This document shows positions 28,964-29,628 of a stretch of 64,000 nucleotides of DNA, one piece after another. Within the stretch, counting starts at the first letter, position 1, and each line of letters opens with the position of its first letter. The stretch covers positions 25,679-89,678 of the forward strand of contig CANGBK010000002.1 in the NCBI GenBank assembly GCA_947452235.1, read 5' to 3'. The notes under the pieces were generated by a model. That model did no database searches, had not been told where the DNA came from, and was given only the letters and a program-made list of their open reading frames with translations. Origin of the DNA: Micrococcales bacterium. GTDB lineage: Bacteria; Actinomycetota; Actinomycetes; Actinomycetales; Microbacteriaceae. A program made the translations under genes and the position numbers.

Positions 28964-29395
28964 CTAGATTTGCTTCACCTCCCCCTCGTTGTAGTTGGCA
29001 AAGTCTTCAGCGCTACCTTCCATAAGAGCTGCGTACTTCTCTGGGTTCCAAATTTCGATAGTTCTACCAACACCGGCAACAACAAGTTCACGACTAAGGT
29101 CTGCCCATGCACGTAGTTCAGCTGAAATAAGGATTCGACCCTGACCATCAGGGGTTTGAGTGTCAGCTAAAGAAAAAAGGTGACGGCTTAGGTTTCGGTA
29201 CTGAGAAGTACCTAACGTTGCAGTTCCCAAGATGGTTTCTGCTCGTTCAAAGAAAGCTTCCTTAGGCATCAATACCAAACAGTTCTCTTGACCCTTAGTG
29301 AGAACTACCCCACCAGCCAGGCTTTCCCTGTATTTTGCTGGCAAGATCAGGCGAAACTTCTCATCAAGTTTGGGGTAGTTAGTGCCGATAAACAT
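28964..29395 (-). CDS. mraZ: transcriptional regulator MraZ
   Basis: Ring-forming DNA-binding protein with two AbrB-like swapped-hairpin domains, usually repressing its own dcw operon. First gene of the cluster. MFIGTNYPKLDEKFRLILPAKYRE and the second copy FSLADTQTPDGQGRILISAELR contain the DXXGR-type motif. 143 residues, exact family length. AAGGAAGGGG precedes ATG. Its promoter region carries repeated GTGG elements (separate entry), likely its own binding sites. Confidence 0.97.
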   Translation of the reverse strand: MFIGTNYPKLDEKFRLILPAKYRESLAGGVVLTKGQENCLVLMPKEAFFERAETILGTATLGTSQYRNLSRHLFSLADTQTPDGQGRILISAELRAWADLSRELVVAGVGRTIEIWNPEKYAALMEGSAEDFANYNEGEVKQI

Positions 29396-29434: not shown

Positions 29435-29478
29435 CCACATTACACCATTTTCATCCACCATTTGTCAAATTAAACCAC
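29435..29478 (-). promoter_or_regulatory. mraZ promoter with three GTGG repeats at 20-bp spacing
   Basis: On the minus strand TTGACA (29468-29463) and TGTAAT (29444-29439) are separated by 18 bases, the best promoter match in the window. GTGG occurs at 29438, 29458 and 29478 (first base on the minus strand), exactly 20 bp apart, bracketing -35 and -10. MraZ operators in other bacteria are direct repeats with a TGGG/GTGG-like core, so these are likely autoregulatory sites (inference). Confidence 0.7.
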
Positions 29479-29494
29479 CAAAATACTATTTTGG
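29478..29494. promoter_or_regulatory. 17-bp perfect palindrome upstream of mraZ promoter
   Basis: CCAAAATACTATTTTGG, two 8-bp arms around one central base, 10 bp upstream of the mraZ -35 on the minus strand. Well placed for an activator or repressor dimer. Not GC-rich and no adjoining T-run, so not a terminator. Confidence 0.5.
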
Positions 29495-29574
29495 CGTGTC
29501 TTGACCAATAAAATCAAGGGGTTATTTGGTGGAGGAAAAATCCTAAGATGTCTCTCAAAAGGGCTATTTTTGGG

Positions 29575-29603
29575 TAAAAAAGAGCCCTGGATCGCTCCAG
29601 GGC
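29575..29603 (-). terminator. intrinsic terminator after DUF3040 gene
   Basis: Minus-strand hairpin GCCCTGGA/TCCAGGGC (29603-29596 and 29591-29584) with a four-base loop, followed by CTCTTTTTT. Lies 26 bases beyond the DUF3040 stop and isolates that gene from the mraZ promoter. Confidence 0.85.
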
Positions 29604-29628
29604 CTATAAAAACAGCTAGATTTGGGGG

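Follow-up and report, generated by a model that had tools for sequence, protein, structure and literature searches.

MraZ is a ring-shaped repressor that regulates the division gene cluster and is widely conserved in bacteria. MraZ boxes, and the MraZ operator of the mra/dcw promoter of Escherichia coli, were reportedly described by Eraso and colleagues in 2014. The MraZ site of Mollicutes is given as (AAAGTGKN3)3 (Fisunov et al., 2016, via PMC5282649 and PMC8475190). In M. genitalium, the remaining genes of the mraZ operon are expressed more strongly when MraZ is lost (PMC8475190). The Burkholderia cenocepacia promoter PmraBc carries four 7-nt repeats separated by 3-nt spacers, and binding of MraZ was detected by gel shift (PMC7761207). 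The MraZ sites of B. cenocepacia and E. coli are described as being downstream of the −10 element (PMC7761207). The number of boxes needed and the way in which the ring protein sits on them are still being worked out in the field.

In the window, which is the whole 64-kb stretch of DNA that was analysed, an array of GTGG elements is found directly upstream of mraZ and over the mraZ promoter. The array is predicted from its sequence to be the MraZ operator of the dcw operon that starts with mraZ, where bound MraZ would exclude RNA polymerase and so bring about autorepression; the probability of this reading is put at about 0.9. On the minus strand, GTGG starts at 29478, 29458 and 29438 and ATGG at 29448. 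The minus-strand decamers that start at 29478, 29468, 29458, 29448 and 29438 are GTGGTTTAAT, TTGACAAATG, GTGGATGAAA, ATGGTGTAAT and GTGGAGATAG, respectively. TTGACA is at 29468–29463 and is followed by an 18-bp gap and TGTAAT at 29444–29439. The GTGG coordinates, the 20-bp distances and the TTGACA-18-TGTAAT sequence given in the initial annotation are all exact on re-reading. A GTGG triple at 20-bp spacing occurs once in the window with both strands counted, 30 simulations of one strand under a first-order Markov model produced none, and RTGG-N6-RTGG-N6-RTGG has a single match in the whole 1.2-Mb genome, which is the array ahead of mraZ. The array is therefore not due to chance.

Sequences upstream of mraZ were compared in 57 genomes of the same order (36 of which, counting the window, are from its genus) and at 60 loci from the class at large. 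The usable regions numbered 117 and were registered on the array, with offsets counted from box 1. The conserved unit is GTGG-N6-GTGG-N6-GTGG, i.e., a 10-bp step. Box 1 (GTGG, 29455–29458, minus strand), whose start is 63 bp ahead of the mraZ ATG, is found as GTGG in 90 of the 117 loci; box 2 (29445–29448, minus strand) reads GTGG in 107 loci and NTGG in 116 but is degraded to ATGG in the window; box 3 (GTGG, 29435–29438, minus strand) is present in 111. Boxes 1 and 3 are invariant in the seven nearest relatives. Perfect 10-bp GTGG triples number 80 in the 117 loci, compared with none in dinucleotide shuffles. As registration had relied on the triple consensus, raw genomes were also searched. 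GTGGN6GTGGNGTANNGTGG matched 37 of the 59 genomes in the set of relatives, and the reversed control pattern gave one match. The matches fall at mraZ upstream coordinates, except for a second match in genome G023, which is on contig C14 and has the identical sequence. The conserved 10-bp lattice makes it very probable, on sequence grounds, that an MraZ operator overlies the mraZ promoter and that its boxes all face the same side of the DNA, as had been proposed. Two outgroup-class loci, L180 and L186, display forward arrays with at least one 11-bp step (e.g., GTGGagtacaaGTGGcataaaGTGG), as opposed to the strict 10-bp step elsewhere.

The central box was compared in an alignment of eight sequences, the window and its seven nearest relatives, of which the closest is G033 with an MraZ 80% identical to that of the window. 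The box is GTGG in all seven relatives and ATGG in the window alone. As read from this alignment, the ATGG at 29448 is the conserved middle box, altered by a single G-to-A substitution; with its GTGG lost, a spacing of 20 bp is what is left in the window. The initial annotation had listed this ATGG as a degenerate half-phase copy; the element is there, but it is the central box of the array and not a half-phase one. Likewise, comparison with relatives, proposed as a check for GTGG at 20 bp, reveals conserved GTGG repeats at 10-bp steps but not at 20-bp steps. The array of the window thus has three direct GTG(G) repeats at a 10-bp step, where at least three characterize an MraZ operator; one is degraded, and the TG core is intact in all three (GTGG, ATGG and GTGG). 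As the substitution in box 2 keeps this core, it would probably weaken the site and not abolish it, and the affinity of MraZ may be lowered. The mutated central box represents a natural test of box tolerance.

The mraZ gene (28964–29395, minus strand) encodes 143 amino acids with two MraZ domains (PF02381, E = 7.5e-27). It begins ∼40 bp downstream of the array and is followed by rsmH/mraW (PF01795). The protein matches the solved MraZ chains 1n0e, 9qlr, 9sx6 and 9qlg, and its translation contains both DxxxR motifs, DEKFR and DGQGR, one per domain. This intact, two-motif MraZ is encoded by the single MraZ locus of the genome. A looser two-box pattern, GTGGNNNAAGTGG, produced three matches in the genome of the window vs 13 for the reversed control, and mraZ appears from sequence to be the sole visible target there. 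Upstream of mraZ on the same strand is a DUF3040 gene, and a hairpin resembling an intrinsic terminator (29583–29604, minus strand) follows that gene and separates it from the mraZ promoter. The first DxKGR motif of the protein (DEKFR) has F at a position where most relatives carry G; close relatives likewise have F, with AAGTTC or AAGTTT codons at that place in the DNA alignment. This F and the degraded box 2 both count against the operator reading. PF02381 is present in 135 of 148 genomes of the class and absent from all 12 listed genomes of genus g41 (family f35), whose genomes are large (6–10 Mb).

The probable −10 hexamer, TAATGT (29437–29442, minus strand), is situated in the spacer between boxes 2 and 3 and has its GT in common with box 3. 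Positions +16 (T), +17 (A) and +21 (T) hold these bases in 96–100% of the 117 loci, and because of this near-invariance the −10 is read as TAnnGT. In the proposed mechanism, the MraZ ring would contact the boxes at 29458, 29448 (weakened) and 29438, one per turn of the DNA and all on one face. As the nearly invariant −10 overlaps boxes 2 and 3, bound MraZ would block RNA polymerase, and mraZ would repress itself together with the dcw operon. The reverse-oriented box at 29529–29532, and possibly the GTGG at 29478, might provide in-phase auxiliary contacts that stabilize binding; the reverse box could serve as a second MraZ contact, by looping or by ring-ring contact.

The outermost GTGG (29475–29478, minus strand; offset −20), which the initial annotation had included in the array, is a possible auxiliary box, but a coincidental origin is slightly more likely than a function. 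In the former case the GTGG would be part of the palindrome CCAAAATAgTATTTTGG, beside a conserved CACGCC element, and would make no contact with MraZ. It does lie in this local inverted repeat, and it is absent from all seven of the nearest relatives aligned. Against coincidence, offset −20 falls on a helically phased auxiliary peak. In loci throughout the class, forward GTGG words occur upstream of the triple and cluster at −10, −21, −31 and −42; the peak at −20 to −22, one of several that are phased, comprises 15 loci in 13 families. In the stretch from −58 to −12, GTGG displays helical phase with R = 0.60 at 10.5 bp (permutation p 2e-4), and with one locus per family the median p is 5e-4. 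The control words GGCG, GGGT and GGAA show helical phase too, so part of the GTGG signal may reflect phased promoter composition and not boxes alone.

Other words are found in the same region. The ACACGCC part of GACACGCC (29493–29500, minus strand) does not vary among the window and its seven aligned relatives, and a GACAC word recurs near offset −40 in many loci of the genus. GACAC in mraZ upstream regions resembles the WhiA core word. Other loci of the genus have GTTAC words, similar to the MtrA site, in the stretch ahead of the triple; MtrA has been tested by gel shift on the mraZ promoter of Dietzia (PMC9602371).

A box of MraZ type in reverse orientation, GTGG within GGTGGAGG, is present on the plus strand at 29529–29532 (offset −74); the partner box that usually lies 10 bp beyond it is degraded. 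The sequence CTCCACCA, which contains this GTGG, is invariant in all eight aligned sequences. In loci that had not been selected for a reverse box, CCAC at −73 to −77 is found in 34 of 36 loci of the genus and in 26 of 81 others, with backgrounds of 4% and 6%, respectively. Reverse-box loci are related to each other, so that binomial p-values overstate independence and family counts are safer. Outside the genus, the 26 loci represent 19 of 45 families; 26 of 45 families have a reverse box in any of three lattice zones (−63 to −66, −73 to −77 and −84 to −87), a more generous figure since the zones were taken from the same data. Where reverse boxes are paired, the spacer is N6 in 28 non-genus pairs as compared with 0–9 pairs for other spacers, and 27 N6 pairs were observed vs a shuffle mean of 0.8. 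The distances of reverse boxes from the triple are mainly near 60, 72 and 82 bp, steps of about one turn, and the lattice positions are ∼−65, −75 and −86. The reverse box is a conserved GTGG of opposite orientation at a fixed and helically phased distance. An antisense promoter at the reverse pair is not favoured: T is third after the second box in 3 of 31 listed pairs, compared with 96–100% at forward +16. Two loci of the genus, in G003 and G024, are without the reverse box; a terminator-like inverted repeat occupies that position, and both loci carry one more GTGG in forward orientation, at offset −31.

These data are compatible with a two-part MraZ operator in the class. Its parts would be the forward 10-bp triple, covering the −10, and a single or paired inverted box ∼75 bp upstream in helical register, with rings that interact by looping or ring-ring contact and produce tighter repression of division. 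This model is tentative, and its chances are put at somewhat below even. The reverse box might instead be the site of another regulator or a remnant, with MraZ acting via the forward triple alone. Most outgroup loci, from other classes of the phylum, keep the forward array and are missing the reverse box, which is absent or rare in the outgroup sampled, and its presence in 26 of 45 families, not in every one, also fits another regulator or a remnant. The reverse pairs, on the other hand, mostly resemble the MraZ signature GTGGAGnAAAGTGGAG and have the same N6 spacer, and the reverse box is in helical phase; a different regulator or a remnant is regarded as less likely than not. A literature search of limited reach, with some key MraZ work outside it, found no description of a reverse box. 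A phased and conserved reverse box provides a specific prediction, cheap to test, on the assembly of MraZ on actinobacterial DNA.

The promoter itself was initially annotated as TTGACA-18-TGTAAT. These sequences are indeed there, and as a promoter the pair has a perfect −35 match, an acceptable gap of 18 bp and TGG directly ahead of TGTAAT. The candidate −35 (29463–29468, minus strand; offset −10), however, has its position in common with G033 alone among the seven aligned relatives. In 35 of 81 non-genus loci TTGAC is at offset −6, directly upstream of box 1, with a 16-bp gap. The −35 of the window is thus uncertain, as its TTGACA is 4 bp further out than in other families and shared in place only with G033. 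The conserved −10 lies two bases downstream of TGTAAT, its TAnnGT pattern is nearly invariant in the 117 loci, and the TTGACA-TGTAAT pair is missing from the promoter-scan output. It is less probable that TTGACA-18-TGTAAT is the promoter than that one with TAnnGT as its −10 is.

A true unit of 20 bp, with GTGG at 29478, 29458 and 29438 two turns apart as a lineage-specific spacing variant, is very improbable: the spacing is exact and unique within the window, but G033 and the six other relatives have GTGG at box 2 and no counterpart of 29478, and the 10-bp triple is class-wide and also found in E. coli.

The predicted MraZ operator can be compared with several described sites. The HsdC controller sites of Mollicutes also cover the −10 with direct repeats that have a TG core, but their spacing is one base off that of the MraZ site and the protein is a different one (PMC5282649). 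The Mollicutes MraZ site has in common with the actinobacterial sites a 10-bp repeat and a GTG core after A-rich bases (AAAGTGG in actinobacterial box 2); the window differs in having GTGG copies, a degraded box 2 and an extra reverse box. PmraBc of B. cenocepacia displays the same 10-bp step, but it has four repeats, which are described as downstream of the −10 and overlapping the start site, whereas the boxes of the window flank and overlap the −10. As the sites in both B. cenocepacia and E. coli are placed downstream of the −10 (PMC7761207), the exact overlap with the promoter differs between groups.

The sequence upstream of mraZ in E. coli K-12 MG1655, read directly, is GTGGGaaattGTGGGgcaaaGTGGG and has a 10-bp lattice. 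Like the array of the window, the E. coli mra/dcw operator has three direct repeats of GTGG type immediately ahead of mraZ, one every 10 bp. The differences are that box 2 of the window is ATGG, that the boxes of the window are without the fifth G of the E. coli GTGGG, and that the actinobacterial reverse box was not seen in the E. coli upstream stretch that was read. The core array ahead of mraZ is an ordinary member of the known kind of MraZ operator, with 10-bp repeats and a GTG core.
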